DNA from: Auricularia sp. M13
Taxonomy: Eukaryota > Basidiomycota > Agaricomycetes > Auriculariales > Auriculariaceae
NCBI GenBank assembly: GCA_037042915.1
Contig: CM073199.1
Coordinates: 558,001-622,000 of the forward strand
Length of the DNA: 64,000 nt
Direction of reading: 5' to 3'
Shown: piece by piece, positions 2,635 through 56,764 of the stretch
Layout: every line of letters starts with the position of its first letter
Position numbering within the stretch: position 1 is the stretch's first letter
The notes under the pieces: generated by a model
What the model saw: the letters and a program-made list of their open reading frames with translations, nothing else
Database searches by the model: none
What the model was told of the DNA's origin: nothing
Translations under genes and position numbers: made by a program

Positions 2635-5434
2635 ATGTGGACCTCGCCGTCGATTGTGTTGCTGGCTGCCACCGTGCTCCGTCCCGTGTGGGGTTCTGAC
2701 ATCGACACCATTCTTTCCCGGCGTGTCGCGCTGTTGAAGAGTGGATGGGACGCGGCGAGTCTCGCGTCCAGCACGCAGAGATTGCTCAGCACTGTACGTG
2801 CGGACTATACTTGGGCGGACGTCAACTACGCCGCTGGATGTCCCGCGCAACGTTCCAACTGGCCTGCGCAGGTGCGTTGTACGAAGCGCCGCTTATGATA
2901 GGCTCACGCTCTATTCAGAGCCACTGGAATCATATCAGTCCGTCGGCGAATTGTGACGCGAGCGAGACTTTTGTAGACTCACTATGCTTTCAGATCAACT
3001 CGCGGGTGCCTACGTAGGCGCAGCAGCCACGCAGTATGAAGGCGACGAGAACGTCCTGAACGTTACTCTCAGCGCCATGGACTGGTGGTTCTCGCGGGAC
3101 TTTACGAACGACAACTGTCTCGTGAACGGCGGGACGTCGAGCTGTCCATGTGGCACCGCGGGTCTGTGGAACACAAACTGGTGCGTCTGATCCCTAGTCT
3201 GCCTAGGATCCATCACTAAACATCCTTCAGGTATAGTAACGTGAGCGAATCAATCGTCGCTCGCGCACGCCATCTAACCCCAGTCCATACATAGGTCATC
3301 CTAATCCCGTCGTTGGTCGCCAACGTGTGCCTGCTACTTCAATCCTCCGAAGCTCTCACGGACACGGCGCGCGGGAACTGCACGCACATCACGGCGCGGG
3401 GGTTCAGCACGTTTGGCACTGGCGCCGGCTTTCTTGCTGGCGCCAACATTCTGCAAATAGCCTCGATAGGCATCTCCGCGGGATTGCTGAGCGGCGATGG
3501 GGATATGCTCGCCGAGGCCTACGGCCACATCAACGACGAGGTTGTCGTCCATCCCGAGATCAAGGTCGATGGTATCAAGCAGGATGGCGGATTCCAGCAG
3601 CATTTGGGCGTGCTGTACAATGGTGAGCCGCAGTCATCCTCCGCCCGAGGTCGTCGCTCACTTAGCGCCAGGGAACTACGGGAAGGCATTGTGAGTCGGT
3701 CGCGTCTGCGGAGCTCCCGAGTCTAAAGCGACGCAGCATCGAGAGCATCTTGTCTCTCGCCACTGAGTCGGCGGGAACGCAGTGGGAGAGCGCGCAAACG
3801 AACAAGGACGCCTTCGCTAGCCTGATCGACGGATCGGCATGGATGATATACGAGAATGTCAAGACTAAGATCTTGCACTGGGACTTTGTCAGCGTGCACC
3901 GCGTCATCCACATTTATGCTAAAGAATATCATAGAGCTCCCTTGCGCGGTTCATCAGCTTCCGCACTAACGACCTCGGGTATGCACTCCATTGGTTTGAC
4001 ACTGAAATCTCCTAGTCACTGACGGAATGTATTAGAGGCTCCGCGCAGACGGCTGGCATCCTCCTGAATGTCGACAGCATCCGGGATTTGGGTACGCTAT
4101 GGAATGAGCAGACGTTGGTCACAGTCGCGGACCTTCTCGAGACGCCGACTGGCAATGCAAATGTCGGCAACCTCTTTGGGAATCGAATGTTCTGGGCCAA
4201 CGACTATATGGTGAGTGGGAAATGGTGAATCCGAATTCCCTCTCAGTGTTTCCAGGTTCATCGTGGACGCAATTACATCACGACAGTCAAGATGTACTCG
4301 TCCCGCACCTCCAACACAGAATGCGTCAACGCGGCCAATCCTCTTGGGTCAGTCCTCGCTGCGATCTATCTCCTGCGATTGCACTCACGCGTTCGTAGAT
4401 TTCACCTGAGCGACGGGACGGTCTACACATACCTCGACGGCGACGAATACGAGAACATTGCCGCGTCATGGGACTGGAATCTTATCCCGGGGACCACTAC
4501 CGACTACGCTGCGACGCCGCTGTCATGCGGCACCGCGCAGCAGACTGGTCTTGAAAATTTTGTCGGCGGCGCATCTGACGGCGAGATCGGTGTTGCAGCT
4601 ATGCGGTTCACCAACCCGATCACCAAAGCACTCAGCTGGCAGAAGGCGTGGTTCTTCCTTCCCGGGGACGTGAGGAAAGTCATGGTGAACTCCATCGCGT
4701 CGTCGTCGCCTGGCATCGACGTATACTCCGTGCTGGAGCAGCGCCGCTTGGACGGAGATGTCTTGCTCGATGGTCGCCCTCTCCCGCAGCGCGATGGGCC
4801 TGCGAACTTCACAGAAGCCCGTACGCTATGGCATGGGAATACCGGCTACATCTTTGATACAGTCTTCCCGGACGCTGGGCTCAGTGTATCTTTCGGTCCT
4901 CGAACCGGCGCATGGTCATCTATCGGCACGTCCACGCAGCCGCCGGAAACTGTCGACTTGTTCGCTGCGTGGCTGCAGCACCCGCCCGCCAATCTTTCCG
5001 CTCCCGTATCATACTCCTTCCTCCCCGGCCTATCCAGCGCTGACTTCACGCAACAAGCGAGAAGGCTCCGCGTTCAGACGCTCGCGAACGACGACAACAA
5101 GATGGGTTTGTGGGACGATCGGAATGGCGTCCTCATGGCCGTGTTCTGGTCCGCAGACGAGCCGATGCAGCTCCCCAGCATTCTGGGAGTCTTGCCTGGC
5201 TTGAGCATCGAGGTGACGCAGCCCGTGGTGCTCATCGGGCGATTCGACAGCATCGACCCGCGAACGTGGACGCTCACCGTCGCCGATCCTGCTCAGAGTG
5301 GGGCAGCCCAGGTCGAGGTGAAGTTCGAATGGCTTCCAGGACCGTTCCCCATCGGAATTAAGCTGGGAGAGGTGAAGGTCGCGTTGCCTCAGGGCGCACA
5401 GGCGGGTAAGAGCGTTACGGTGTCCGTATTGTGA
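2635..5434 (+). CDS. secreted polysaccharide lyase family 8 (hyaluronate/chondroitin/xanthan lyase-like)
   Basis: Eleven exons: 2635..2871, 2919..2937, 2994..3180, 3231..3240, 3295..3622, 3672..3690, 3737..3887, 3935..3978, 4036..4210, 4256..4347, 4399..5434. They sum to 2298 nt, 765 aa, a normal PL8 length. A signal peptide (MWTSPSIVLLAATVLRPVWG) is followed by the alpha-toroid domain with GGTSSCPCGTAGLWNTNW (catalytic Asn region), then DGGFQQHLGVLYNGNYG around residues 248-264 (catalytic His and Tyr region) and MYSSRTSNTEC around 403-413 (Arg pair). The last exon encodes the beta-sandwich domains. PL8 enzymes cleave uronic-acid polysaccharides by beta-elimination outside the cell. Three exons are tiny (19, 10 and 19 nt), all forced by frame and by family alignment. 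The intron at 3691-3736 is the least certain. The substrate cannot be told from sequence. Confidence 0.93.
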
Positions 5435-12717: not shown

Positions 12718-13119
12718 GGCTGACGACGGGACGACGGAAGGTGTTCAAGAACAGGAAAACATGAACAAACACAGGTTAGTATTCAACCTCCGCATGTTTC
12801 ATACAATGTTTGGGGACGACGTCATCAACAGCACAATGCTGCCGATGCAAAGGAATACTAGGTTTGGAAAGCTGCTTTGGTGACTGAGGTTCAAAGCTAA
12901 CCACTCGTTATCAGCGGCGACTCGCGGGTGAGTGGTTACGAGTCACCGGCCCCTTCAATTAACTGTATTGACGGCCATTTTCAGGTCCAATAACCCTCGC
13001 TACCGGTTTCCGCTGAGTTTCCCACATCCACGTTAGTGCAAACAAGGGAACGTGCTCGCGCCCATATACGGATTCTGTTTCTGCGGGGAGCATTTCCGAC
13101 GAGAACCACCGTCTTCCCC
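12718..13119. other. spacer ending at the KDZ target duplication
   Basis: About 400 bp without a gene, probably the paralogue 2 promoter. Its last 8 bases, TCTTCCCC at 13,112-13,119, are the left copy of the KDZ target-site duplication. Confidence 0.5.
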
Positions 13120-13470
13120 CACCCGTCCGGTATAACAAACAAGCCTAGATAGGCCCGTATCACCGGGGGGGTGATGCAAGCCTAAGTAGGCTCAGTAGGC
13201 ACCTGTACAACCTCATGCATGAATTATCGTCTTCATCTCAAGAAACCTCGGGCCGCACAGGAGAGCATGAGAAGATCAAGCTGCGGGGCCCTGACAGGCC
13301 CGTCCCTGACATGCGTCAGCGGGCGCCAATGCTTCGCCGCCGTCCCGGCGCCATCAACGGGCTGCTGTCATTGTTGCCGCCGCCGCCGACGACGACTACG
13401 ACCGCCGTCGAACCTCTCTCCCGTGCCCTCGACATATATATACCATTCTGCTCGCATTTTCGAGCAGAAT
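13120..13470 (+). repeat. KDZ left terminal inverted repeat
   Basis: 351 bp, matching the reverse complement of 20,932-21,282 apart from about three substitutions. The outer 80 bp hold repeated palindromic GCCTANNTAGGC motifs and a CACCGGGGGGGTG core, plausible transposase binding sites. The inner end holds an inward-facing TATATATA box and GCTCGCATTTTCGAGC. Confidence 0.92.
13431..13444 (+). promoter_or_regulatory. TATA box in left TIR, facing inward
   Basis: GACATATATATACC in the left repeat. All element genes read the other way, so a transcript from here would be antisense to the HMG-like gene. Inferred from sequence only. Confidence 0.4.
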
Positions 13471-13833
13471 TCATCTCGATACAGTAAATAAAATGTATTC
13501 AAAGGCTATTGAAGGCAGACAAAGCAGCATAGCAACATGAACTTGCGGTAAATAGCAAAGAGAGTATGCCAGGGTAAAGCGGGGTGCGAGAGCAGGGAAG
13601 GGCAGGGATGAGCTGAGCAGAGCGGGGAGAGCGGGGAAGGCAGGCAAGACGAAGAGCGGGAAGAGCGGGTGGACGAAGAGCGGCAAGAGCAGGTAAAAGC
13701 GGGCAAAATAGCGTGTATGCAGGAAAGGGCGGGGAGAGCAAGATGAGCGAGAGCGGGTATGATTAGGAGGGGGGGCTAGACATCGGCGTTCAAGTCCCCG
13801 AGAGGCTGGTTGCGGGTGCGGGTTGTGTTCTTG
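13471..13833. other. purine-rich tract inside the KDZ element
   Basis: Between the left repeat and the 3' end of the HMG-like gene. About 13,600-13,760 is an almost uninterrupted run of AGAGCGGG/GGCAGG-type purine repeats. No gene. Confidence 0.55.
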
Positions 13834-15124
13834 TCAGAGCGAGTCTTGCGAGGCTCGGGGGGGGGTGTACTCGGGATTAGCATCGAGGGCCTGCTTGCGG
13901 GCCTCGACTTCGTCAGCAGGCACCTTGCGCCAGGTTGCGCTGCCCGACTTGATGGCTGCGATGAGCTTCTTGAGCTGTGCTGGCTTGCCCAGCTTCTGGA
14001 AGTTCGGAGGGCCGCCGGACCAACCCACGAACTCCACGCTGTACTTGTCGAGCGCGGAATGCGCGTTGTACACGATCTTCACGTCACCGACAACTTGCTC
14101 TGCAAAAGGATCAGCGGCGAGATACGTAGCACAGCTGTCTGGTGCGTACCCCAGTTCTCGCGCAAGAGCCGGCGCGCCTCTGTTGTCAGTGGGCTGTGCT
14201 TCTCCACGACCGCGCCAGAGATTGTCGTACCTGAAGATCATGTGAGCATGACGCTACAACCAAAAGTAAAGGACGTACCAGGGCCACGGCCAACGGCCCA
14301 GCCTTCAAGAGCAACGGCAAGATCTTCAGGCGTGCATTTGAGTCGCTCCTTCGTGAACAGTGCGATATTTTCCGACATGAGCAGCTTCGTGTTCGCCTTG
14401 ACGCGCGGGTTGCGATTCACGATGATGGTCAGGTGCTCCACGTCGCACCGGTTCTCGAGACCTGCCAGCTGAAAACAAAATGAGTACGAAACCGTTAGAC
14501 AGAATAATGGGGACGTACCTTCAACTGATAATCCTGCGCAAATTTGTCGACGTCGGTGGCCTGCGCCTTGGCGAGATGGTGGCCGGTATTCTCTTTGTCC
14601 CACCGGTGCTGCTCGAGGTCTTGCATAAGGCCTTCCTTCTCAGCCTCCGTCAGCGCGTCGTACTCGGCCCGGAGGTCGGCGCTCGCTGACATAGCGGGCA
14701 TCTTGCTCCTGCCCGACACTGCGTACGAGTCAGCTTATGAATCTACGGAGAGAGCAATACAAACTTACCTCCAGACATTGTCGAGGCCTTCTTGTGTATG
14801 AAGGCATTATATGCCGTGACCTTGCGCTTCGTGCGCTTCGACAGCGCGATTTGATTGAAGCGAAGCCGGACGTACTCAATGGGCCTTGTAACCTGATCAG
14901 CGAGACGACACTTCCCTACGAAAGAAAAACACTCACTTGTTAATCTGCTGGGCGAGGTCGGCAAACTGTGCCTCCTGCGTGCGCCCGAGTGCCTCGAAGA
15001 GCGCGCTTTCTTCTTTTTTCTTGTCCGAGATTTCTTTCTTCTGCACGGGGGTAAGCGGCGCCTTCTTGACAGGGCGGCGCGAAAAGGACTCTCGGCCGGT
15101 CTTCTTCGTCTTAATGGGGGCCAT
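13834..15124 (-). CDS. KDZ-associated HMG-box-like protein (346 aa)
   Basis: Six exons: complement(join(13834..14099,14150..14230,14279..14468,14519..14718,14769..14884,14937..15124)), 1041 nt in frame. After a lysine-rich N-terminus comes RTKRKVTAYNAFIHKKA (about residues 75-95), then LRAEYDALTEAEKEGLMQDL (about 115-140), the layout of an HMG-box-like helical domain split by an intron. The C-terminus has the sequence DKYSVEFVGWSGGPPNFQKL and SGSATWRKVP, resembling the 'GWP..VPF...W.+L' tail seen in proteins that recur beside KDZ transposases in Agaricomycetes. It may bind element DNA or bend it during transposition; that role is inferred. The exon 4-6 joins are the ones most dependent on frame reasoning. 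Confidence 0.78.
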
Positions 15125-15384
15125 ACGTGGGGGAGGGGAAACAAGACAAGGGAGCGAGGAAAGCGATGAGCGAGCGGGGAGAGACGAAGAATCGGGGGAT
15201 GAAAAAAATGATCACAGCTTTTATGACGAAAGTGTTCCGATTGCCTAAGCAACGGAGTCGGCAGACAGACCATGGGTATCGGGCAGTGAAGAGCTATAGA
15301 AAGAGGAATGAGTGTGGTGTGGAAATGAACGGGATGAGGACGAAGATGAAGTTCATTATATACAACGAGCACGGCGGCAGCGGC

Positions 15385-16884
15385 TCACATGGGCCACTGC
15401 TCAGCCGTAGCATCCTCAACTGCAGCTTGCAGCAGCTGGGCAGCCGTCACGGGCGGGATGGCGCAGGCCTTGGTGAAGAGATAATACCAGTCGGCGGCGG
15501 GGTGGTGATGCGGAGAGGAGCTGCGCAGCATCGCGAGGATCTGCGTGCGCGTGTCGACGGGAATGGTGGGGAACTGGCTAAACACGACGTGGACACGGCT
15601 GAACCTGGGCGGCGTATCGTTTCTCATGCGCCGCCAGTTGACGCGTTCCGTTGCCCGGTTGATGTTTTCCTTGATGAGGCCTTCGACGTTGTCGCGACCC
15701 AAAAGCAGCGCGATGTCCGGGGCCGCAACGTAGCGCCAAGGCTCCACGGTGTTGACGACGACACGAGCGGGCAGGTTGGTGTACAGCGGGGAAGTGAGGA
15801 GGTGCTTCTTGCGCTCGGAGAACGTCGCAGCGTGCGGCGCGGCAACCAAATCACGGTACATGTCGACCAGGACCGTCTTTTTGAGAGCGGCGTTGGCGCC
15901 ACCGATGGACAGCGGCGGCGGCGAGTGGATGGTAACCTTGACGTTTTCCGGGATGAGGACGGCACCGTCGTGTGCGGGGTGGACCTCGGGGATGCCGTGC
16001 AAGACGAGTGTCGCCGAGTCAGTCACGCGGTCAGCAAGACGGGCCTACAATGTAAATCAGTATAAGGATAGGGATGCTAGTAACTACTCACCAAGTCGCA
16101 GATCAGTGCGAAGATCTCTTTCCTGAGGTCCTCGCGTTTTTGGGTCTCGATCCAATAGTCGTCGTGCACAACGCCTGCGTTGCTGTTGTCGCGGCCATCG
16201 TTACGGGTACCCAGAGCCCATTCGAGGAGGAGGTAGGGGCGCTCCTCGTCGCTCAGGTTGTCCAGGGCCCCCGACGTGTACTTTGAGCGGTGTTTCTTGG
16301 GCGCCGCAGGTGCGGCACGAGACGGCGTGGAAGAGGCAACTCGAGATGCCGTGGACGAGGCAGCGCGAGACGGGGTCGGAGCCGGGGTAGGAGCAGGAGT
16401 ACGGGACGGTGTCTTCGGCACCGTGAAGTCCCAGGTCAGCGCAGTCGGGGGCTGCGAGAAACCCGCCTGCTGACGGCGGGTCGGTGTCTGCGGCACCTGC
16501 TCGAAGTCCTCGTTGCCGACACCATACCTGCTGTCGATGGGCTGCTGTAAAAAAATGAGTGAACGAAATAAAACACGGCAAATGAGCACATACCGCAGCT
16601 GGATGACCAAAGACCTGGTGGTACATCCGGGCGAGCATGTCGCGCTGAGCCGGGCTGAGCTCGCTGGTGCTGACAGATGACAGCGTGGACATGGTAGATG
16701 GGCTTTCTGGGTCTCCAGGCAGGGTCTCGTTGCGAAATCGGCCGCCGAACACGTCGTTGCCCTCGAATGCTGCGCCTGAGGTGCCAACACGTGTCCGGTC
16801 CGCAGAAGGAGCAGAAACGTCCAGCCTGGTCAGCTTCTGCCCTTTTTGCTTTCCGCGTGCATGCGCCGACGAGCGCGAGTCCAT
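15385..16884 (-). CDS. KDZ passenger protein of unknown function (467 aa)
   Basis: Three exons: complement(join(15385..16044,16092..16544,16594..16884)), 1404 nt in frame, start MDSRSSAHARG. The N-terminal 200 residues are low-complexity, with a Pro/Thr/Ser/Ala repeat (TPSRTPAPTPAPTPSRAAS). The middle has EERPYLLLEWALG and EIFALICDLV. The C-terminal 220 residues look globular (VVVNTVEPWRYVAAPDIALL, VHVVFSQFPTIPVDTRTQIL). I recognise no named domain. It lies between the HMG-like gene and the transposase, same strand, about 260 bp and 700 bp from each, inside the same inverted repeats, so it moves with the element. It could be a second transposition protein or an anti-silencing factor; neither is shown. 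Confidence 0.72.
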
Positions 16885-17589
16885 GGTGCGTGTAACGAGG
16901 CCGATGCGTCGACGAGGTGGTGGTAAGAGGGAAAGGAACGATGCTTCCGGTCCGCACATGCCCGCACGCAGATATTGCACTGCAGACGACTCACACAGTA
17001 AATCGTCTCAAAACTGCGTTGAAGAGGTTGCTTTAGAGTCAGGTACCCATGATATGAAATTTGGAAGCGGTATGTTTTGCAGTTAGCAAGATAATCGGTG
17101 TTCATTGCTAGAGGTTGGATGGACTCAGTCACCTCGCGCGGTCTGTTCGACCATTACAACGATGTGTCGTGCGTCTCCCAATATAATATCGACGGATTCA
17201 AGGGTATCTTAGCCTATAAATGAAATACTGAAGTAATTAAGCTTATCGGTCAGAGCGGTAGTCCGTTATGCCGTCGAATGCTCGAAAAGCTGGGGTTCAG
17301 TGCAACATGCACCGTGGACCGAACACGTTCATTCGTCTCCACAGTTTGTCCTGGGGCAAATGTTCCGATTTATACACCTTGGTATGTCATCTGAAGCTCG
17401 TATACACGCATTAAAAGAGCATAAATGCTCCTGGTCTTTCATGTGTGCTAGAAACAGCAGAGTCAGTCATGCATTGCGGCCTCACTGTTCTGACTTCTTG
17501 TCTTCATTTGCTCAAAAACCTCCAATATAATGGGAGCAGGACAATTTCAAAAGCAAATGGCATGTCTATAGGGCAGAGAGAACACCGTA
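16885..17589. other. internal KDZ spacer
   Basis: About 700 bp between the passenger start and the transposase 3' end. AT-richer than the genes. No reading frame of interest; likely the passenger promoter and the transposase 3' untranslated region. Confidence 0.5.
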
Positions 17590-20500
17590 CTAGTCAAAGA
17601 ATGCGAGGGGGAGAGCATCGTCACCGGAGATTGCAGTCTCGAAGGCCTCCATTCGGAGCGACACCTCCAGCTGCCCTTCGTCACCAGAATCGTCACTCCC
17701 ATCGTCCAGGGCGTTGGACGATGCAGACTGCGCGGGAGGAGTTTCAGGAGGAGGCGTTGGAGTCGAGCCTGCGCGCGTGCCCGGTCCAGGAGTACCGGAG
17801 AAGCCGCTCGTCTTCTCCAGCTTCATCAGACGCACGCGATGAACGTGGTTGACACGTGCCCGCATGTGCTGTAGCTCGCGCAGCTCGACTGCGATAGGCT
17901 CGTTGTCGTTGAGGGCTTTCTCCGCCGCTGCTGCGAGCAGACGATCTTCGTCTTCGATCCAGGTTCGAAGTCGGCGCGCTTCCACGTTGCAGCGTGTGAT
18001 CTCCTCCTGCGCGCGCAGCTTCTTGAAGTAGGCCGTCATGAACTCCCTGTTGGTTAAATTAGCCCATGGTCTGTCGCGGATATCCTGGCGCGCCATTCGC
18101 AGCAAGCTGAAGTCCGATAGCTCTGACCACTGAGCTATCGTTCGCCACTGCAAATCCTGCGCGTGAGGATTGACCGCCTTGTGCGCACTGTTGAAGTTCT
18201 TGAGCGCAGTCTGTATCGCGCGCGAACGGCGCTGCAGCGCCTTGGCGATTTGGTCTCGAAGTTTGTAGCCTTCAAGACGGATTAGAAATTGCATGCGACA
18301 GTCGAAACGCACTTACAGACATCCGACATATTAGCCTTTGTCAGTTCCAGCAGGCGCTGAACGACAAGGCGCTCGAGCTGATCGAGCGCGCGATGAAACT
18401 GACGCCGTTGAATGTAAACGAGAGTGTCGCGCCACTCGTTTGACAACGGCGTCCACCTGCGACCAGCAGGGACCTCCAGCTTCTCCTCATACGAGCGGAC
18501 CTCGCCCTCCACGATATCCAGATCGCGACGCGCGTTAGACCTGGCTCGATCAAGCTGCGCCACATGCTGGTTGTATGTGCGAATCTTGCCGCTCGGCCGG
18601 AAAGTTTCAGGGCTCGCGCTGCTGAACTCGTGCATGGCATTTGCATAGCGATTCCTGATGAGTTAGTGAGCGCAAAATATCGAGCATGACACAAAGAAAC
18701 TTACTGCACATTCTCCAGCTTGACCAAGGACTCAACGTACCCGACGGCGAGTGCGTCACCGTCGGGTTCCTTCTTCAAGCCCTCCAGGTAGTCGTATTCT
18801 TCCTGGCGCCACTTCTCGAAGTCCGAGGCTTCAATTCCGACGGCGGCGGCGGCGGCGATGGCCTTGTCGCCCGCTTTGATGAGGCCAAGGGCCTGCTTGT
18901 AATTACCGATGATGAACTTGGACAATTCGGAGTACTTGATGTCGTCCCAGTGCTGGAAATGCATATCGATGAATTGTCGCCAGTGGAAGTATGTGCCAAA
19001 GCGGATGGTGCGCGCGACATCGTTCGACTCCGAAAAGACGCGCTCGCAGGTTTCCAAATCCTCGAGCCCGACGCCTTCGCTGATCAGCGGGTGGTTGACA
19101 AGCTGGCAAAGACGATGGTGGGCGTGGCCGTGGAAGGCGTTCGTTATTGTTCGGACGTCGAGTTCCTTGGCGCGCGCGCCCAACGAACTCCTTGATAGAG
19201 TGGCTGCGAAGCCACAGCCAATGTCGTATCCGCCGCGCTGAGCGACAGGGAAAAGGTCCATGAGCTTGGCAACCAGCGCCAATGGGTACTTTGCCCTGAA
19301 AGAATTTAGCACGTCAGGAATTAGCCCAGAGACGAGCTCGACGTACAGCTCGCCGCTCCTGACCATCTCGAGAATAAAAAGAACCAGTCCGTGCCGGCAC
19401 GCGCCCAGGAAGATGCCCGTCTGCTCGAAGAAGTCGAGCTGGCGCTTCATATGCTCTGGTTGCATATTCTTCCAGTTATCTTGACACGGCGGGGCCTCCT
19501 GATCGCCGCTGTCGCCTGGCTCTGCGCCAATATTGAATTTTGCTGTCTTGCCATGCCGCCGAACCTCGTCCTTAAACTCGTCCGCGTTGTCGAGGAAGTA
19601 ATCGCTCGCAAACGTGCGAGTGTCTGCTGACCCTGCGTTGGCATGGCGCTTGAGCGAGCCATTGCCATCCATGGCCCATAAGCGTTGGATAGCGAGCGGC
19701 GGCTCGGCTTCAAGCTAGATGAAAGAAACGAAGTGAGAGAGTATCGACGCGAAAGAGAATAATGACACACCGTATAGCTGCACGCTGGGCATGCATTCAG
19801 CGCGCGCCAGTCGGGTGTGTCACGGCCGAGGTACACGCGAACTCGGCGCGAGACCTCGCGTCGTATGTATAAGTAGGCGTCGAACGCGTCGGATAGTTGA
19901 CGACGCAATTCGGGTCGGTAAGGGATATTTGCGAGCGAGGCGAGGGTGCGCGCGAACGGCTGGAAGCCAAGGCGTGGATGATGAAGCCGGAGCAGTCGAT
20001 ATAGCTCCAGCGCGCGCATGCCAACGCCAAACGCGGGCTGTAGAGGCGTTGAGGCGACAAAGCCGTACCGCATCATGGTGAGCACGGCGTGCTCGTTCTG
20101 GTCTTTCCGCACGAAAGTCTGCTCATGCTCTTGATCTAATAAATGAATCAGTTACCAGTATACATATCGAGAACGGAATACGTACGATATAGCTCTTGAA
20201 TCTCGATGGTGAAGGCCGACGAGCCTTCGTCGCGCGGTAGAATATCCAAAGGCTCCTCCGCAGCGGCACGCCGCTTCCATTCCAGGTATACGTCGACGAG
20301 TTCGGGCATAAGTCTATCCCAGTGGATATGGTGCGCGATATTGCGCTCTTGACGCGTGCGGAAGCCTTTAGCTCGCATATAGAACCTTTGCACATGTTCA
20401 GCCAAGTTCAGATAAAATACATTGAACAGCACGTACTTTCGGGTATGGGTAAGGCGTGCGAGGGACGGGCTGTCTTCGTCCTCCGTCTCCCAGGCGTCTT

Positions 20501-20825
20501 GGGACAGCGTGAAGTCGGGCAGTGGGACGATGCCATCGTCGTCGGTGTCGAAGAAACCAAGGGCAACTCGCGGCAATTCCTGCCCCTCGAGCGCAGCCTG
20601 CTCGGTGGGATTGTCTGCAAACCCTGTATGCGAGGGATCAGATGATACAAGAGTGGCTATAGGACGTTGCGCACTGCGACGATCTGCGCGGTTGAGAGCC
20701 TGGTTTCGCGTGCCCGACAAAACCTCAATCTGAGCAGCAGACAGCCTGGACCTTGACGTCAAGACCGTGATCTTGCCCCGTTTGGCAACGTTCGCGCTCT
20801 TGGAGAGGCGCGGCTGGCGCTGCAT
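17590..20825 (-). CDS. KDZ transposase (about 976-993 aa)
   Basis: Exons: complement(join(17590..18269,18317..18654,18705..19295,19347..19714,19771..20135,20186..20825)); a further 51-nt in-frame intron at 20,386-20,436 is likely. The protein carries the KDZ landmarks in order: CPACSY (zinc-binding), MDGNGSLKR (first catalytic Asp candidate), DYFL, EQTGIFLGACRHG, SGELAKYPLAL, GYDIGCGF (second Asp candidate), FHGHAHHRLCQL, GVGLEDLETCERVFSESN (Glu candidate), FGTYFHWRQFIDMHFQHWDD, NYKQAL, then a coiled-coil region with YKLRDQIAKALQRRS. The 51-nt intron at 19,296-19,346 is in frame and shown by the family motif it interrupts. KDZ transposases are RNase-H-fold DDE enzymes. All key motifs are present and no break was found. 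Confidence 0.92.
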
Positions 20826-20931
20826 GGTGGTGTCGAGCGTGAGCGGTGCGGTCTGAACTAAGGCCGTTCAACTCCGAAGTGCCCGCGGGCAGACTCTTCC
20901 AGACTATTTTTTAAATCACTATCATAATCGT

Positions 20932-21282
20932 ATTCTGCTCGAAAATGCGAGCAGAATGGTATATATATGTCGAGGGCACGGGAGAGAGGTTCGACGGCGG
21001 TCGTCGTCGTCGTCGGCGGCAGCGGCAACAATGACAGCAGCCCGTTGATGGCGCCGGGACGGCGGCGAAGCATTGGCGCCCGCTGACGCATGTCAGGGAC
21101 GGGCCTGTCAGTGCCCCGCAGCTTGATCTTCTCATGCTCTCCTGTGCGGCCCGAGGTTTCTTGAGATGAAGACGATAATTCATGCATGAGGTTGTACAGG
21201 TGCCTACTGAGCCTACTTAGGCTTGCATCACCCCCCCGGTGATACGGGCCTATCTAGGCTTGTTTGTTATACCGGACGGGTG
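20932..21282 (-). repeat. KDZ right terminal inverted repeat
   Basis: Mirror of the left repeat; differences seen are a C/A in GGGGCCCTGAC, a C/T in the GCCGCC run and a T/G in GACTACGACC. The terminal base is followed directly by the duplicated TCTTCCCC. Confidence 0.92.
20955..20970 (-). promoter_or_regulatory. TATA box in right TIR, likely transposase promoter
   Basis: ACATATATATACC on the minus strand, about 135 nt upstream of the transposase ATG at 20,825. The only strong TATA in the upstream interval; the same box sits in the left repeat. Confidence 0.5.
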
Positions 21283-22529
21283 TCTTCCCCGATGACAGCG
21301 GCGCTCACAGATTCGAAGTTACTACGCATTGCAATGAAACGCGAAACCCGGCTCCCACGTTAATACGACGAGTCTCTTTCCAGCTCTCACACCGATGGAA
21401 CGGCGGCGGCAACAATGCGTCAGACGTCATCGGGCGTGAACAGGTATGACCAGACAGTCTAGCCTCTCTCTCTGCGCCTCTCTACCCGGAAATCCTGGTA
21501 GGCATATATATATGTGTCTGCTAACCAGAGGATTTGCAACGCGGATATATCAGTCAAAGCCCTGGAGACGCGCTGCCAATGCAATGGACCTCCGCGGAGG
21601 CGGCCAGCGGGTCCTCTCGGGAAGCGTTCAATCCACCGTGTTGGGCCTAGGCTCCGCCGATATAGCGTGGCATGGTCTCTCGTCCACGTTTCCTGCATAC
21701 GAACTCCTGACTGGCCGAATATTCGGCGAGGAACGTAGGACGATCGAGATTTGAGACGGTACTGAAGAACCGAAGCTGCGCGCAAGGAAAGCGCATGGGC
21801 GCACCGTCCGGGAACGACCACATGAGCAGACTGAGTGCTTCCTCCCAGTGCCCAAGAAGTCGGGCCGATGCACGAGGTCAGGCCGAAACATCAGCCCGAC
21901 GTACCTTCTCCCCGCGTGGTGTGCAACTCAGGTAAATGCACACATACAGCACCTCATGCGAGGGAATGTCCCCGCCGGGTCACGGCTTCGTCATCAGTTC
22001 AGCGCTCCTCAGGCAGCAGTGGTGGCATGTGTCGGCCGACACTGTCAGCTCCACCCAGACGCCTGACGCTTGACATGTCAGGCTCCGGCGGGCTGACAGT
22101 GTCTGACCCCCGTCAGACACTTGCGTCATCCCGCCGCACAAACACGGCGGGGTCGAGCGTGCCGAGTTCGCGACAGGCGCTTATATTTTAAGCGCTGGCT
22201 GCGCAGTCAGACACCCATCAAGCGATGGAGCGCCCGTGGAGCCTGACCTGACACTGACACTCCTGACTCGCCGACCGTCCGGAGTGTCAGACAGTGTCTG
22301 ACCCGGGTCGGTGACACCACTGGAAGTGCCGACCGTTTTGCGTCCCATGGCAGGTAATAGCGCTGCACGCCGTTAGTGATAATGGGTCGCCATGTCCGTT
22401 TCAGCGCAGGAAAACTCTCAGGAATCGCCGGGAGGAGGAGCTGAGAGGGAGAGGGAGAGGGACCGAGTTCGGGCTGAGATGTTGTCGATGCCACTTGTGG
22501 CCTCACTGCCTCTAGCCTGAGTGGCACCC
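21283..22529. other. intergenic with GTGTCTGAC repeats
   Basis: No gene seen. From about 22,030 to 22,330 the motif GACAGTGTCTGACCC appears twice directly (about 22,098 and 22,292), along with inverted TGTCAG/CTGACA copies, which suggests remains of a small element. Confidence 0.4.
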
Positions 22530-41252: not shown

Positions 41253-42902
41253 ATGTCGCTTCTCTCGCGTAAATTGGACAATAAGGCCTTCGAGAAATAC
41301 GCCCATAAAAAATACGACGCGGACGACGACGCGGTGCTGCCCGACGCAGACGCCTTTCAATGCTGGGACGCCGACGTGTCCGACCTTATAATTACCGGAT
41401 TTGACGACGACGCCAAGGAGCTATTGCGCGCTGCCAACGCGGGCGACGCAGAAGTCAAGGACACGCCGGAGTTGGTGGTGCAGTGGTGCACGATGGATCG
41501 CGTGGTGAGTCGCGTCTATCACAGAGCAAACTATGCGCACGAGATGCTCATTCTTTTAATTTGATGAATTTAGTATTACATCGTTCGACGCGTAGAAGAA
41601 AAAATCCGCGTGCCCAAGGCATACTGGGTATGTATGTGCTTGAATGGAGCACGTTTCAAATGGTCTCTGTCGTCGGGCATCCTCATTGATGTTGCCTCTG
41701 ATAGTACCTCGCGGCTGAAGGACGGCTTTTGACGCCAGAAACCGTCGCGTGCAATTCGACGGCGTTCAATGGAGTAACCCCAGGTACGTTTCTCTCTATG
41801 CCCAGAACTCGCGTTTCCTCACCTAAATCATGTGTTTTACCACTGGAAGAACTAGTACTGGTTCCCAAGGCCGCACTCGGCGCCTTCAAACAGTCCCTCC
41901 AACCCAAATCCCAAGGCGCGATGCAGAAGGTGGCGGCTCTCTTTGGTCTCGTGGAGCCCCTCGGATCCACAGACGCAAAGGCCTGGACGGCCTACCTCAA
42001 GCAGCGCAAACTATGCAACACGAGGCTACAGCAGACCCTCGCGGAAATGGATGACGAGTCTGAGCCGTGCCGCGCGATGTTTAAACAGATTCGTCGCGGG
42101 ACGGCCGACGTCGCTGGCGACTCAGTGAATCTGGAGAATACGATTACGCCTTGGAGCGTGAGTATTGAGGACGACGATGGCGATGTAAGTCAGCACACTG
42201 CCTCTCCGGGGTCGAAGCTGACGATGTGTACGGGAATGCCAGGTCCGGAGCTCCGATATCCTCACCCGCATCCACTCGCTCACGAAACCTGCGGCGGTGG
42301 ACGTGAAGATCTGGTACTGGCACAAGGCGCGCTACTACTCCGTTGAGTGGGGCTATACCGTGGAGTACCGCATCGCCAACACCGTTTCGGAGAACCCGCC
42401 GAACAAAAAAGGAGGTGCATGGAAGAAGCTGGTCTCCATGCGGCTCGAGGATTCCAACTCGAGCGGCAAGATCAACAAGTGGAATCCGCGCGAGGTCAAG
42501 AATTTTGGTATGACGGGCGCAGACGTGCGCGCTGTGCGCAGTGTGTTGTTCGGCGACAGTCAGGATGCGGGGATTTCGATGGTGGACACCGTCCGCCTGC
42601 TGCTCGCCAGTGTCGGTATCTGCATCAAGCTCCGCGTCGCCGATGCCTCGAAGAAGATGACTGAGAACGGCTCAGACGAGGATGATGAAGACCGGACAAA
42701 CCGCGACAAATTCGATTCCCACGGCTGCACAACCAAGTATGGCAGCCTCGCCGACCCGCGCTGGCTCGGCGTGCACATCCGGCGTGTGTGCTCCGCCGCC
42801 ATCCCCAGCGACGCGGACTTTGTCGACCGGGCTGCCGAGCCGAGGTACGAAGAGGACGAGTTTGAGGAAGACCAGGACGATTACGACGACGATTACTTTT
42901 AG
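41253..42902 (+). CDS. unknown Agaricomycete family, member A (459 aa, looks intact)
   Basis: Five exons: 41253..41504, 41574..41627, 41705..41783, 41850..42184, 42243..42902, 1380 nt. Start MSLLSRKLDNKAF. Shared family landmarks: KYxxDE near residue 15-20, LIITGFDDDAKELL, RRVEEKIRVPKAYW, TVACN, FGLVEPLGSTDAKAWTAYLK, ITPWSVSIEDDDGD, KPAAVDVKIWYWHKARYYSV, WNPREVKNFGMTGADVRA, LLLASVGICIKLRVAD, IRRVCSAAIPSDADF and an acidic tail (YEEDEFEEDQDDYDDDYF). Three copies in this window share all intron positions. I recognise no named domain; the protein is acidic and soluble-looking. TATA-like sequence precedes the ATG at a modest distance. Confidence 0.8.
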
Positions 42903-43407
42903 ATTAACTCCTTATTCCTCCGGAACGTGATATATACTGTGTATCTGTGCTCAAAATGGGCGTGATTGCTGAAATATAATGCCTGGACTATAATCTGGTG
43001 ACGATCCGACTGAGGTTGGCGGAGTCTGCAGTCAGAGTTGCGAGGGGCCAACAGAGGATTGTTCGGAGCCAAGTCGGAGTTATTTGTCATCTTCCCGTCA
43101 CGGTCGTCTTTGATTCTGGAATCTGGAGCGCTCTCCTGTCGGGCCTGCCACCATGCAATGCTTCGTCGAGGCATGCTGCTGATGCGTAACCCGTGGCCGA
43201 AAACCGTGTGGCACTCGCAGAGCGATTGACTGGGTGGCACAATTGACCTTCAGACAACTGCCACCTATTCAGCCTCTCGCTCAGTATGCGTACCACGCCA
43301 GGAAGCGCCATGGAATACGCGAACCGTGGTGCACTCCCATTCCTATGGTATAAAAGGCGGCCTGCGAGCAGCGGAACTGATTCACGCCTCTCGGTTCTGC
43401 GCGTACG
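42903..43407. other. intergenic; TATA box for ZF1
   Basis: GGTATAAAAGGC at 43,347-43,358 lies about 55 nt upstream of the ZF1 ATG. A matching TATATAAGG lies at the same distance in ZF2. Otherwise no gene in these 500 bp. Confidence 0.55.
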
Positions 43408-44618
43408 ATGCAAAACGAAAGGTACGCCCTAAGCTCATGACTACGCCCAGAATATGTGGTATTCAACATATCTTCTGTTCTTACACTCGCGCGGGCATCT
43501 GTTGCAACTACTGGCCTACAAGAGCGCACTCGCGTTTCAGTTCAGCCCTGCCTCCTCCGCGCCTCATGACCGGCACCGACCAGAAGAGGCCGTACAACGG
43601 TGATCACGAATCTACGTGTACGCAACATAGCATCACTCGGTCCTTCTGCCCATGTGCTGCTCTTTCTGCTGATTTGTCTACCTCTCCCGGCGACGATGTT
43701 CGAAGCACCGGCTCGCCTCTCATTGGATTTGACTCGGAGGGCTATTCTACGCTCGAAAACCGCAGCAACTACGAATGCGTTTCTGTGTCTTCGTTCTGCG
43801 ATGTGTATTCTGCCGACTCTCGCGGGCTGGATGATGCCATAAATATTCAAGATAGCGATGCGCACACCGATTCTTGGAGCGTCTCGATCTCCGAAGGCAT
43901 CTCACACGTTGACGATGCACCTGTTGCGTCTGGAAATTCAACAATCCCTATTACTCCTGAGGGATCGCTGGGCCCGATCATGCCAACATTGACGCCGCGT
44001 GAGCTTCGAGCCTCGCGGCGAGCTTCCCAGCAAGAACGGGCGTCACAGTCTTTGGGCCGAGAACCGATGCCTACCTTCAGCAGGGCAGAGTATGAACGCT
44101 TGTGCGACCAGGTTCAGGTCGGGGTGAGGGGCCCGCACTCATGTCCAGTCGTCGGCTGTGGGATGCTCATCGGCCAGAGCACAAATCTGAAGCGACATCT
44201 CGCGACACATATTCATAAGAGCGAGAAACGGCAGCCCAAGTGTCCTACCTGCGGAAGGCTGCTCAGCCGCGAGGATGCCTTACGTCGTCACATGTCGATG
44301 CATGCCGGCGATTCTGTTGACTCGGAGGACCTGGATCCCGAGAGCGAGAGCGAGTCTACACCCGAGTTCGACACCGCTAGCAGCAACCCCAATTCGACTT
44401 TGCTAATGCCGACGCTCACCGAGGGTGAGTTGTACAGTCGACTTCAACCGGGCGCGACGGGTCGGTGGCATTGTCCAATCACAAACTATGAGGATCACTT
44501 CCGCGACAAGAATAAGCTTACACGACATATCCAAGACCTCCATCTGAAGACGGGACATACTTATATGCGCGATTTGCAAGACCGTGTGCTGCCGCAAAGA
44601 CGCTTTGGGTCATCATAG
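43408..44618 (+). CDS. C2H2 zinc-finger protein ZF1 (363 aa)
   Basis: Two exons: 43408..43421 (MQNE plus two bases) and 43541..44618, 1092 nt. The N-terminal 200 residues are acidic and serine-rich. Around residues 215-240 is MPTLTPRELRASRRASQQE, shared with ZF2. Then fingers: CPVVGCGMLIGQSTNLKRHL (plus H) and CPTCGRLLSREDALRRHMSMH. A third unit, CPITNYEDHFRDKNKLTRHI plus H, has lost its second cysteine. It sits between family members A and B on the same strand. Probably a transcription regulator. The second ATG at 43,566 aligns with the apparent start of ZF2. Confidence 0.8.
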
Positions 44619-44916: not shown

Positions 44917-46542
44917 ATGTCGCTCTCCTCGCGCCGCTTGGGCAACAAGGCGTTCAAAAAATACGCCAGAGACGAATACGACGGCGACGAGCTACCACAC
45001 GAAGGCACATACGCCTGCTGGGGTCTGAGCAGATCGAATCTTGTTCTTCGCGGGTACAATGAAGACGCCAACGAGGTGCTGAGTACTGCTAACAGTAGTG
45101 GCGAGCCGCAGCTGGAGATTCCGTGGTGCGCGCTGGACAGCATCGTGAGCTCATCAGCAGCGCCATTAGAAACCGTACTGCAACTATCGTTTTAGATGTT
45201 CATCATGCACCGAGTTGAAGCAAAAATCAAGGTTCCGCGAGAGCACTGGGTAGGCAACTAGCCAGCCCGTGCATTCAAGCTCACTATTCTACGCTGCTTC
45301 ACCCTACAATTCAGTTTCTTGCGGCAGAGGGCATTGTATTTGACGAGGGGACAGTGGCCTGCAACTCTGTTGTATTCCGAAAACCAAACCCCGGTGCGTA
45401 CATCTCCCAACATATTAGCCGGCTAGTAACGTACTGAACACAACTGTGTGGCAGAGCTCATCCTGCTTCCGAAGACTGCTGTCGACGAGTACAAAGCTTT
45501 GCAGGCGCCCAGAACCCCATCATCCATCGAGTTAGCAAGAACACTTTTTGGAATTGTCGCTTCACCAGAGTCGGCAGAAGAGACGGCGTGGGCGGCGTAC
45601 GTTAAGCAGCGCCAGCGCAGCAACAAGGAGCTAGAGTTCCAGATTCCCGTCGGCACAGGTGAGGCCGACGACTATCAAGATGGGCTAGAAAGCGGGCCGG
45701 CGCTCACCTACGCCATGCTCTCACATATCCGCACATCCACGAGCGAGGTGCTCGCCTCGAACCACGACGTCGAAGACGCTGTGTACTTTGAGGCTGTGAA
45801 TTGCGTGACGCCGTGGGCCGTGGATGTCGAGGGTGACGACAACGTAAGCAGCTGTCAATTTCGGTTGCACAGACCGTTAACCTGACTGCCATTGTATATG
45901 CCTTCGTAGGTGACAGGCGCAGATGTGTGCACACGGATCCACTCTATGGTGCGCCCGGCGGCAGTGGATGTGAAGCTCTTCCATTGGCACAAGCCGCGAT
46001 ACTACTCCGTCGAATGGTCTGTGCGCGTCCTCTACCGTGTACTAGACCCCGTGCCTGAAAACGCGCCACGGACTGGCGACGACGAATTGGGATGGAAGCT
46101 GCTCCTGTCCTGCAGCCTGGAGGACACTAACACGCGCGGCGACATGCGGCGCTGGAACCCGCTCGAGGTGAAATCGTTCGGAATGCTTGGCTCAGACGTC
46201 CGCGCGTTGCAGCGCCTGCTCTTCAGCGATCCCCAATCCGCACCGGCGGACCAGCATCTCAAGGTATCGTTGGTGTCGACTATCCGGCTTTTACTCGCAA
46301 GCGTCGGTATTTTCGTCAAGATGCGCGTCGCGGACGCCGATTACGCGCCGGACCCAGAGTTCCCGGACCCTCGGGGCAACGTCGACCGCTACGCGTGGTT
46401 CGACTGCGCGCCCGAATACAGCCTGCCAGGCGCGGAATGGCTCGCAGTTAACATCCGTCGCGTGTGCACTGCGGCTATCCCTAGCGACGCGGACTTCGTA
46501 GACAAGGCTGCCGAGCCCAAGGGGGGGCCGGAAGCAAAATGA
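44917..46542 (+). CDS. unknown family, member B, truncated by a MITE (460 aa)
   Basis: Five exons with the same boundaries as member A: 44917..45144, 45196..45249, 45315..45393, 45455..45843, 45910..46542, 1383 nt. It keeps VEAKIKVPREHW, TVACN, CVTPWAVDVEGDD, RPAAVDVKLFHWHKPRYYSV, WNPLEVKSFGMLGSDVRA and IRRVCTAAIPSDADF. At AAEP the coding sequence runs into the MITE at 46,518 and ends after eight element-derived codons (KGGPEAK-stop). The original acidic tail lies stranded beyond the element at 46,936-47,022. Member A shows the empty site (GCTGCCGAGCCGAGGTAC). The shortened protein may still fold, since only the acidic tail is lost. Confidence 0.82.
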
Positions 46543-54285: not shown

Positions 54286-56114
54286 TCAGGCTTCTGCCCC
54301 TTGCTTCGCAAGTTCGCATTTCGCGACGTGCGCGTTAAGCATATCGACCCGCTCGCACATCACGCCGCACCAGTCGCAACGGAAGCCCGGCACCGCATGG
54401 GTCATCAAGTGCTGAAAGGAGGCCGTCGGGTCTGAACTCTCGTAGCGACAGTTTGGGAAGCTGCAGACTGAGACTGTGTTCGTGGGGGCGTTGCCGTGAG
54501 CGCGATCAGAGCGTGACGAGACGAGCGCCTGGTTCTTCCTGGAGACACGACTCGGATGAGCGGACGGGCGGGCGATGCGGGCCTTTTTCGAGCTTCCAGC
54601 GACGGTGAGAGACTTCTTCAAGGGCCCTGGGGCCGGGACAACTGCCTGAGGCTGCGGTGCCGGCGGAACGTAGAAAGTCAGGGGCCGCGCCATATGACTC
54701 TGCGATGGTGGGACTACCAAATAGAATAGCGGTGCTGAGTTGGCAAGTGCGGCAGGCAGTGGGATGGGGGGCACGAGCAGAGGCTGCGGCGCGAGAACCG
54801 GGACCCCCGTCGACGCTGATTGAGCTGCAGCGGGTTTGGGGAGCTGTGCAATGTCGGGCTCGGCGTGGGCAGGTATATTGACCTCCTTCAGAGGCCTCGA
54901 CTCGAAGGGAGAGATATCGGCCTGAGGGTGCCGCGCAGGCTCCTCTTGCGCGCGGCCGTCCTTGATAGTTGACGCCGGCGGTTCAGCGCGCTGCCTATTA
55001 GAAGACTCAGTCGCAGCATCTTGCAAATTCGATGCCGGCGTAGAGACTTGGTCGACGTCGCGTACACTCGTCCAGTCGTCGTCGGTCGTCCGTCGCAGTG
55101 ATTGCAGCGCTGGAAGATCCGAGAGCTCTGATGCAAAACGACCCGGTTTCAGCAGTAAGCCAGGCGCGCGGAAGACGCAACCGGAGCTGAAATTTGTCTG
55201 TCAGACGTGTAGTAGTGATCAGCGCTTGTGGCGCACCTTTGGTCTTGCGTCGCAACCGAAGGCCGTTGCGTCGTAAACGAAGGTGTGTCCACTAACTGCG
55301 AGTCTATCTGAGGGGCTGGGGGCACGACGCTTTCCGAAGCGGCTCCAACAGTGAGCTGGCGATCACTGCTATCTGCGAGAGCAGAATTACCAGATTTAGT
55401 GCGCTGCGACCGGTGCTGTGTTTTCATATGACGACGCAATGCGTCCTTGCGGCTGACCACGATATTGCAGACCGAGCATATAGGTCCCCGTTTTTCACTC
55501 GGATGAATGTGCGTCACCAAGTGCCGCCTCAGACATGCCATCGTGGTAGGACGCGCCCCACAGCCCCGGAGTGGGCATGGTCGCCGACCCTGCACGCACC
55601 GTTGACGCTGGTCACTCAAGCGTTCAAATTCGTCCCAGGTGATGGTGAGTTTCCCTTCGTGCAAAGACTGCGGCGCCGCTGCTTCCTGCAGGGAAGCTCT
55701 CCGGGAGGCTCGAAGCTGACGCGGCGTCAAAGTTGGCATGTTCGGGCCCGACGCCTCTTCAGAAGAAATCGATAATGACGGGTTTCCGGGCGTAACAGGA
55801 ACTTCGTCAACGTGTGCACCATCTTCGGAGATCGAGGCGCTCCGGAAGTCCGAGTGCGCGGCGCTATCCGCAAGTTGAATGGAACCCTCCAGCCCGCGAT
55901 AGTGGGAAGAATACACGTCGCAGAGCTCGGAAAGAGAGTCGGAATCGAGCGCAGAATGAACGTCAGAGTCGGATTCAATGAGGAGATCGTCGACGGGCGC
56001 GGCAGACAATTCTGCAGAAACAGATCCGCAGGAGGGGGACCAAGGAGCACCATTTTGCGTACATGTCAATAAGTCATCGCCGCTGGGCGCCCGATTCCGG
56101 TCCTCGTCGGTCAT
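54286..56114 (-). CDS. C2H2 zinc-finger protein ZF2 (592 aa)
   Basis: Two coding exons: complement(join(54286..55186,55237..56114)), 1779 nt. The acceptor AAATTTCAG joins the two frames. The first 320 residues parallel ZF1: MTDEDRNRAPSGDD, acidic region, MPTLTPRQLRASRRASLQE, fingers CPLRGCGARPTTMACLRRHL and CSVCNIVVSRKDALRRHMKT. Unlike ZF1 it then has about 250 residues of Pro/Ala-rich sequence and a last finger pair-like region (CSFPNCRYESSDPTASFQHL; CDWCGVMCERVDMLNAHVAK plus C). In ZF1 translation starts in a 14-nt exon (ATGCAAAACGAAAG); the matching ZF2 sequence at 56,252-56,265 is ATTCAGAGCCAAAG, so the old start is gone. The next ATG, first codon of the following exon, is used here. Confidence 0.78.
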
Positions 56115-56764
56115 CTGGAACAGAGAAGGCGGCATCGAACAGGATCCAAGACTACCAGGTTTCGACCGTTGCCACCACAAATATAAGACGCTTTCAGAGC
56201 TGTCAGTTGGATGTAACAATGTGTAAGGGTAGTGATTTGCTTGCGGCGCACCTTTGGCTCTGAATCGTGAGCGCGGAAGAAAGAGGCGTGAATCAGGTCC
56301 GTTGCTCACAGCCTGCCTTATATACGGTGATGATTTGAGCACACCACGGTTCGCGTAGCCCACGGCTCTGCCTGGCGTGGTGCGCATATTGAGCAAGAGG
56401 CTGAACGGAGTGGCGGTTGTCTCAAGGTCAATTGATAAATTGTGCCAGCCCGTCTTGCACTCTGCCAGTGCCACATGGTGGTCGGACTCGTATTACACGT
56501 TATCAGCGCACGTCGACGCGGGATAGCATGGCGGCAATCGAGACACGTGAGCGTCCAGAATCAAAGACGACATGCAGTTGGAGACTGAGATGAAAATAAC
56601 GGATGTTACATAACTCCGACCTGGTTCCGAACACGTCCCACTCCGCGATGGCAAACATATTGCAAGATTTCTCCCATTTCATGATACAAAGATAACATAA
56701 AACAAAACAAAAAAAATAGGGTGCCGGTTGATTAGAAATAATCATCGTTAGACGGGTCACTACC
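56115..56764. other. ZF2 promoter, lost first exon, and spacer
   Basis: TATATAAGG at 56,317-56,325 (minus strand) and the leader GATTCACGCCTCT match the ZF1 promoter and leader. The intervening 56,115-56,251 corresponds to the first ZF1 intron. Beyond this the spacer leads to the 3' end of pseudogene C. Confidence 0.6.

Follow-up and report, generated by a model that had tools for sequence, protein, structure and literature searches.

Elements of the Kyakuja-Dileera-Zisupton (KDZ) superfamily are abundant in mushroom genomes and poorly characterized. In a stretch of 64,000 nucleotides from the basidiomycete Auricularia sp. M13 (contig C7, positions 558001-622000, GenBank CM073199.1; hereafter the window), we identified a new member of this superfamily, an element of 8163 bp that is labelled C7 in the comparisons within its own genome. 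We consider it probable that C7 is a structurally complete cut-and-paste element, that it belongs to a lineage with a fixed set of three genes, here called T, B and C, and that it moves by the mechanism proposed below. The assembly searched for relatives was that of the same genome (52.1 Mb in 14 contigs).

Ends of the element and target-site duplication

The element occupies positions 13120-21282 of the window. It is bounded by terminal inverted repeats (TIRs) of 351 bp, the left arm of which (13120-13470, plus strand) starts with CACCCGTCCGG, while the right arm (20932-21282, minus strand) differs from the left one by three mismatches, at TIR positions 171, 262 and 278. The ends of the element read CA..TG, and an exact target-site duplication of 8 bp, TCTTCCCC, is present at 13112-13119 and at 21283-21290 (no strand assigned). 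When the window was shuffled 20 times by mononucleotides, the inverted repeats reached at most 26 bp, compared with 351 bp for the TIRs; identical 8-mers were found in 78 of 2,000,000 random position pairs; and TCTTCCCC occurs only twice in the whole window, both times flanking the element. Thus, the TIRs and the duplication are not chance features. A sequence-only reading of this DNA had proposed a clean-ended KDZ element with 351-bp TIRs and an exact 8-bp duplication, and all of this is supported by the ends, the duplication and the Pfam match presented below.

Two palindromes of the form GCCTA(NN)TAGGC (13143-13154 and 13180-13191, plus strand) surround a G-rich palindrome, ATCACCGGGGGGGTGAT (13159-13175). 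All of them fall inside the outer ~81 bp that the element has in common with non-autonomous copies, and this subterminal region (13143-13191) is a candidate binding site for the transposase. The inner edge of the TIR (13435-13470, plus strand) harbours TATATATA followed by a palindrome, ATTCTGCTCG-CATTTT-CGAGCAGAAT. This motif, which recurs in mirror image in the right arm, upstream of gene T, is a candidate core promoter; its TATA stretch is also present in a related element, C6a. Insertion into a host gene was considered and rejected: joining the flanks yields a single frame of at least 90 amino acids across the site (94 amino acids). The site therefore looks intergenic, with no host gene evidently broken.

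A KDZ transposase in a lineage with three genes

The models of genes T, B and C were built by eye. All three lie on the minus strand, with frames that are continuous once GT-AG introns of 47-56 bp are removed. Gene T (17590-20825) codes for a KDZ transposase of 1010 amino acids in five exons (20825-20186, 20135-19771, 19714-18705, 18654-18317 and 18269-17590). It matches the Pfam KDZ transposase family PF18758 with an E-value of 8.4e-66 and 222 bits (cut-off 26.6). In an alignment of 19 transposases of the same genome, D351 is kept in 18 and D499 and E556 in all 19; we take these to be the catalytic D/D/E residues. The match to the CxC1 cysteine cluster is weak (E 0.0095, 16.5 bits) and under the cut-off of 26.9, and those of the sister elements C1, C4a and C6b, at 24.7-26 bits, are likewise under it. 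No relative was detected in viral_contigs when the main exon of the transposase was used as query.

In protein searches of the same genome, the three genes recurred on one strand, in the order C-B-T, at seven loci: C7 itself, C6a (C6:1150992-1179960), C3 (C3:3658347-3666397), C4a (C4:2924751-2933751), C4b (around C4:3008438-3014210), C6b (C6:1689043-1724603) and C1 (C1:4198043-4217088). The transposases of these loci are down to 48% identical. When 19 transposases were placed in a maximum-likelihood tree, a branch with a support of 99 (Shimodaira-Hasegawa-like approximate likelihood ratio test, SH-aLRT) separated these seven from the rest; this tree comes from a quick search with no bootstrap, is rooted at the midpoint and has one long branch elsewhere. 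Its sequences are those transposases of the genome whose pieces were assembled, a subset of all KDZ matches. As the genome search with PF18758 gave at least 149 exon-level matches, the C-B-T lineage represents a small part of the KDZ load of this genome.

Between C7 and C6a, amino acid identity is 82% for T, 71% for C and 54% for B. The ratios of non-synonymous to synonymous substitution rates (dN/dS, NG86 method) for this pair are 0.09 for T (987 codons), 0.34 for B (455 codons) and 0.17 for C (327 codons), which indicates that all three genes are kept under purifying selection. The dS values are similar, at 1.27, 1.21 and 1.21, respectively, and the three genes thus appear to have diverged together. 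However, dS values above 1 are near saturation, so that the ratios are rough and the case for selection is weakened accordingly; the dN/dS values of B and C against more distant elements (0.28-0.66) are unreliable for the same reason. A YN00 value was obtained for T against C6a alone, all other values being NG86 estimates, and the C8 locus described below was left out. Since T is 92% identical to its C6a counterpart in one stretch and B 62%, a swapping of modules, with T and B+C coming from separate sources, was also envisaged; the similar dS of the three genes led us to reject it.

A further possibility is that B and C are captured passengers with no role in transposition. They are less conserved than T, and fungal KDZ elements are known to carry cargo such as TET/JBP genes (PMC12730594). 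Nevertheless, the same B-C order is maintained at the seven loci despite the divergence of their transposases, dN/dS stays below 0.4 against C6a, and matches to B and C are rare elsewhere, all of which makes the passenger explanation improbable. In four single-protein searches, which miss diverged relatives, the matches to B or C outside the seven loci were limited to a B-C pair on C8 and to short hits on C10 and C3 against the C terminus of gene C. The C8 locus (C8:3393.6-3395.8 kb) has both B and C, and no T or KDZ match was found near the pair in the searches of this genome. The short matches are at C10:2444434-2444592 (E 1.9e-10) and C3:3530254-3530448 (E 9.6e-4). A sister-clade transposase is located ~4 kb from the latter, and gene C may therefore predate the lineage described here.

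Gene B (15385-16884, minus strand) codes for 467 amino acids in three exons (16884-16594, 16544-16092 and 16044-15385). The N-terminal half of the protein is of low complexity, followed by a conserved C-terminal domain of ~220 amino acids. Pfam scans of the protein alone and with its relatives detected no family above the cut-off; the weak matches under it included Calpain_inhib (0.061) and SelB_WH_2nd_bact (0.12, in two of the seven B proteins). A profile made from seven of the eight rows, that of C3 being left out, matched nothing in the PDB at an E-value of 5.

Gene C as a putative HMG-box-like protein

Gene C (13834-15124, minus strand) codes for 346 amino acids as read, in six exons (15124-14937, 14884-14769, 14718-14519, 14468-14279, 14230-14150 and 14099-13834). 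On balance, we favour the view that its product is an HMG-box-like protein, with the box-like region at about residues 80-150. The best PDB match of the gene C profile is mitochondrial transcription factor A (TFAM; 3fgh, E 8.8e-4, profile positions 72-143), and all six matches at an E-value of 0.01 or better are TFAM entries. An hhalign comparison with the TFAM box gave a probability of 87.6% over residues 80-150, a value biased upward by the choice of the best database match as partner, and 0.1% for gene B as a control.

Several observations weigh against this assignment and against the mechanism proposed below. The profile rests on four of eight hand-joined rows (C7, C4a, C1 and C8), the rows of C6a, C3, C4b and C6b having been excluded for mixtures of frames or introns in the joined pieces. 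At an E-value of 5, its 16 PDB matches comprise ten TFAM entries, three designed proteins and three copper ATPases. Pfam scans of gene C, alone and with its relatives, detected nothing above the cut-offs. The Pfam HMG_box was reached by one of four gene C proteins, that of a relative (E 0.17), and, when cut-out segments were used, by the segment of this relative, one of four (E 0.046, 14.6 bits, in register, under the cut-off of 25.4). Neither the protein nor the segment of the window's own gene C matched HMG_box in these scans; the best weak match of that protein is the unrelated DUF6118 (E 0.011, under the cut-off), and Ribosomal_S2 (0.14) is another match under the cut-off. Single-sequence structure predictions were poor, with a mean predicted local distance difference test (pLDDT) score of 60.9 for 87 amino acids of gene C and of 36.6 for the last exon of gene B (219 amino acids).

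The C-terminal end of gene C differs between the window copy and its relatives. In the five relatives in which this end was read (C6a, C3, C4a, C6b and C1; the C4b and C8 tails were left out), the frame of the last exon stays open through a basic tail that contains a K-x-R-S-D motif and could be a nuclear-localization signal. The window copy has a similar basic tail, with this motif (13776-13856, minus strand), in another frame, past nine consecutive G of the last exon (13857-13865, no strand assigned), and the frame used stops early, a feature that detracts from the completeness of the element. This break may reflect a true mutation or, alternatively, an error in the assembly; in the former case it may disable or weaken the window copy. 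The earlier description of three spliced genes with no break is thus right about three spliceable genes and wrong, as the sequence stands, about the tail of gene C, which is out of frame here and in frame in all five relatives. Current activity, which that description considered possible, is unproven, and gene C appears frame-shifted.

Age of the insertion

C7 is the only copy of its subfamily found in the assembly. The search of the genome with the TIR gave 14 matches, counting both arms of C7, and the sole other pair of full-length matches is that of C6a, 75-76% identical. No near-identical second copy was found in the assembly, the best full-length TIR match being 76%, and a search for an empty site in the same genome with the joined flanks returned only the two flanks themselves; both results weaken the case for recent movement of C7 itself. 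The search for copies with the same ends advised by the sequence-only reading yielded no second element with the 351-bp ends, and ~81 bp in common with non-autonomous elements at 90-91%, an outcome that goes halfway towards the refutation set out in that reading.

These observations would fit an older, immobilized insertion, in which a real frame shift has removed the tail of gene C and which can move only if relatives supply this protein. The tail is in frame in each relative read and not in C7, in line with such a loss, and the absence of a near-identical second copy is as expected. However, the remainder of gene C is open, as are T and B, and a single homopolymer difference is just how an assembly error looks. 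We regard this explanation as rather unlikely.

The arms of C7 are 99.1% identical, within a range of 97.9-99.7% for the six autonomous elements with both ends located. The mismatches between arms are 3/351 in C7, 1/353 in C6a (plus two gap bases), 4/363 in C3, 3/366 in C4a (plus two gap bases), 5/384 in C6b and 8/386 in C1; in the non-autonomous elements they are 3/357 in C9n, 1/357 in C3n and 18/354 in C2n. The transposase gene of C6a is split by an insert of ~20.9 kb, with TG and CA at its borders and a 5-bp repeat (CGAGG), as in long terminal repeat elements, yet C6a has the most identical arms among the autonomous elements. TIR identity is thus no firm clock for age, and dating by TIR divergence was dropped, with the proviso that the nested insertion may itself be young and C6a no proof of great age. 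Furthermore, a quarter of the TIR positions differ between C7 and C6a, whereas the arms within each element agree, which argues that the arms have probably been homogenized.

In the light of these data, the proposal of a recent transposition is weakly supported: it is based on the exact duplication and the mostly open genes, the similarity of the arms giving no firm date. A stronger version would make C7 a very recent, intact and probably active autonomous copy, the break in gene C being a homopolymer assembly error. The exact duplication, the 99.1% identity of the TIRs and the open, spliceable genes T and B are in its favour, and the break falls in a nine-G run, a typical place for sequencing errors. 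Nevertheless, arm identity is higher in C6a, which is already split by a nested insert, and neither sibling copies nor an empty site were found in the genome. We consider this version doubtful.

Ends of related and non-autonomous elements

All autonomous elements with located ends start with CACCC, and five of the six with both ends located (C7, C6a, C3, C6b and C1) are flanked by exact, direct 8-bp duplications, namely, besides that of C7, GTGCCCAG for C6a, CCCACTGC for C3, GTCCCAAA for C6b and GCAGCCGC for C1. The flanks of C4a are inverted rather than direct, as the sequence past its right end matches the reverse complement of the left flank at 29 of 29 bases; C4a may be part of a larger inverted duplication or result from an aberrant insertion. 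The ends of C4b were not found within the 8.6 kb examined, and the CxC1 match found at C4:3020079 points to a transposase gene that is likewise split. Between genes B and T of C6b, inside the TIRs, we observed a gene with a CxC4 cysteine cluster (E 1.3e-25), together with the best TET/JBP match of the genome (positions 471-1778 and 7977-8381 of C6:1695001-1705000); they may belong to a nested element or represent captured cargo.

Four non-autonomous elements (C9n, C2n, C3n and one on C1) share ~81 bp of the C7 ends at 90-91% identity. In that on C1, which is 9347 bp long with a nested insert, this likeness is found in one arm. Exact duplications flank three of the four, those on C9 (CTGGCAAA), C2 (CGCTGTAC) and C1 (GTGTGGCA), and C3n has none. 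As these three duplications differ from one another, this type of end has moved more than once. C9n and C3n share 98.8% identity over 2669 bp. The ends common to the non-autonomous copies suggest mobilization in trans.

Proposed mechanism and comparison with known transposons

We propose that the DDE-type transposase encoded by gene T would bind palindromes within the terminal ~80 bp of both TIRs, pair both ends, excise the element and insert it with an 8-bp staggered cut, which would generate the 8-bp duplications. The gene C product would be an HMG-box-like protein that bends DNA and thereby assists the pairing of the long ends, and the gene B product a second partner, perhaps for complex assembly or target choice. 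Elements of the lineage would in addition supply the transposase in trans to non-autonomous copies. In its most specific form, this scenario describes a KDZ lineage with a self-encoded HMG-box bender, a DDE transposase and a partner of a new family, the TIR arms of which are homogenized, perhaps during transposition; we put it forward tentatively, as falling somewhat short of probable.

C7 has the TIRs and the 8-bp duplication of the Zisupton and Dileera type. Compared by description only, the Zisupton lineage has 8-bp duplications and TIRs as C7 does, and C7 adds genes B and C (PMC12730594). The same source describes the Kyakuja lineage of Agaricomycetes as having a KDZ transposase and CA..TG termini, like C7, and the Laccaria Kyakuja families as having 7-bp duplications, no TIRs and a TET/JBP gene (PMC12730594). 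In contrast, C7 has an 8-bp duplication and 351-bp TIRs, and no TET/JBP gene was found inside it, none of the 19 PF12851 matches of the genome being on contig C7. In Cryptococcus neoformans, the elements KDZ1, KDZ2 and KDZ3 were caught moving; they are ~9-11 kb long, with a KDZ transposase with CxC1 and TIRs of 139-241 bp, and their duplications are of 8 bp for KDZ1, as in C7, and of 4-8 bp for KDZ2 and KDZ3 (PMC12810828). By this description, the sole basis of the comparison, C7 differs from them by its longer TIRs (351 bp) and a CxC1 match under the cut-off.

HMG-box cofactors of transposition are known from Sleeping Beauty, for which HMGB1 is a host cofactor. Another host HMG-box protein, HMGXB4, is a factor of Sleeping Beauty transposition as well (PMC10138897). 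These Sleeping Beauty cofactors are host-encoded, whereas C7 would carry its own in the form of gene C, if our reading is true. The titles and abstract openings returned by literature searches described no HMG box in a KDZ or Zisupton element, and we do not claim its absence from print on this basis.

Other features of the window

Outside the element, an open frame with a polysaccharide lyase family 8 domain (E 1.4e-67) is found at 4229-5431. The regions 43103-44294 and 55425-56571 form a diverged inverted pair, 66.6% identical over 1215 bp, which overlaps two open frames on opposite strands and looks like a duplicated gene pair. C2H2 zinc-finger matches in these frames are above the cut-off at 43230-44615 and just under it at 55152-56492. 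Two other open frames, at 42222-42899 and 45910-46539, are alike near their start and have no Pfam match at an E-value of 0.01.

Implications

The C6a result is a warning against the use of TIR identity as an age clock in this group. The exact ends, the conserved three-gene set and the related non-autonomous family make up a parts list for a transposition assay. If our reading of gene C is true, a eukaryotic transposon would encode an HMG-type bending cofactor of its own, whereas others rely on the host for this function.

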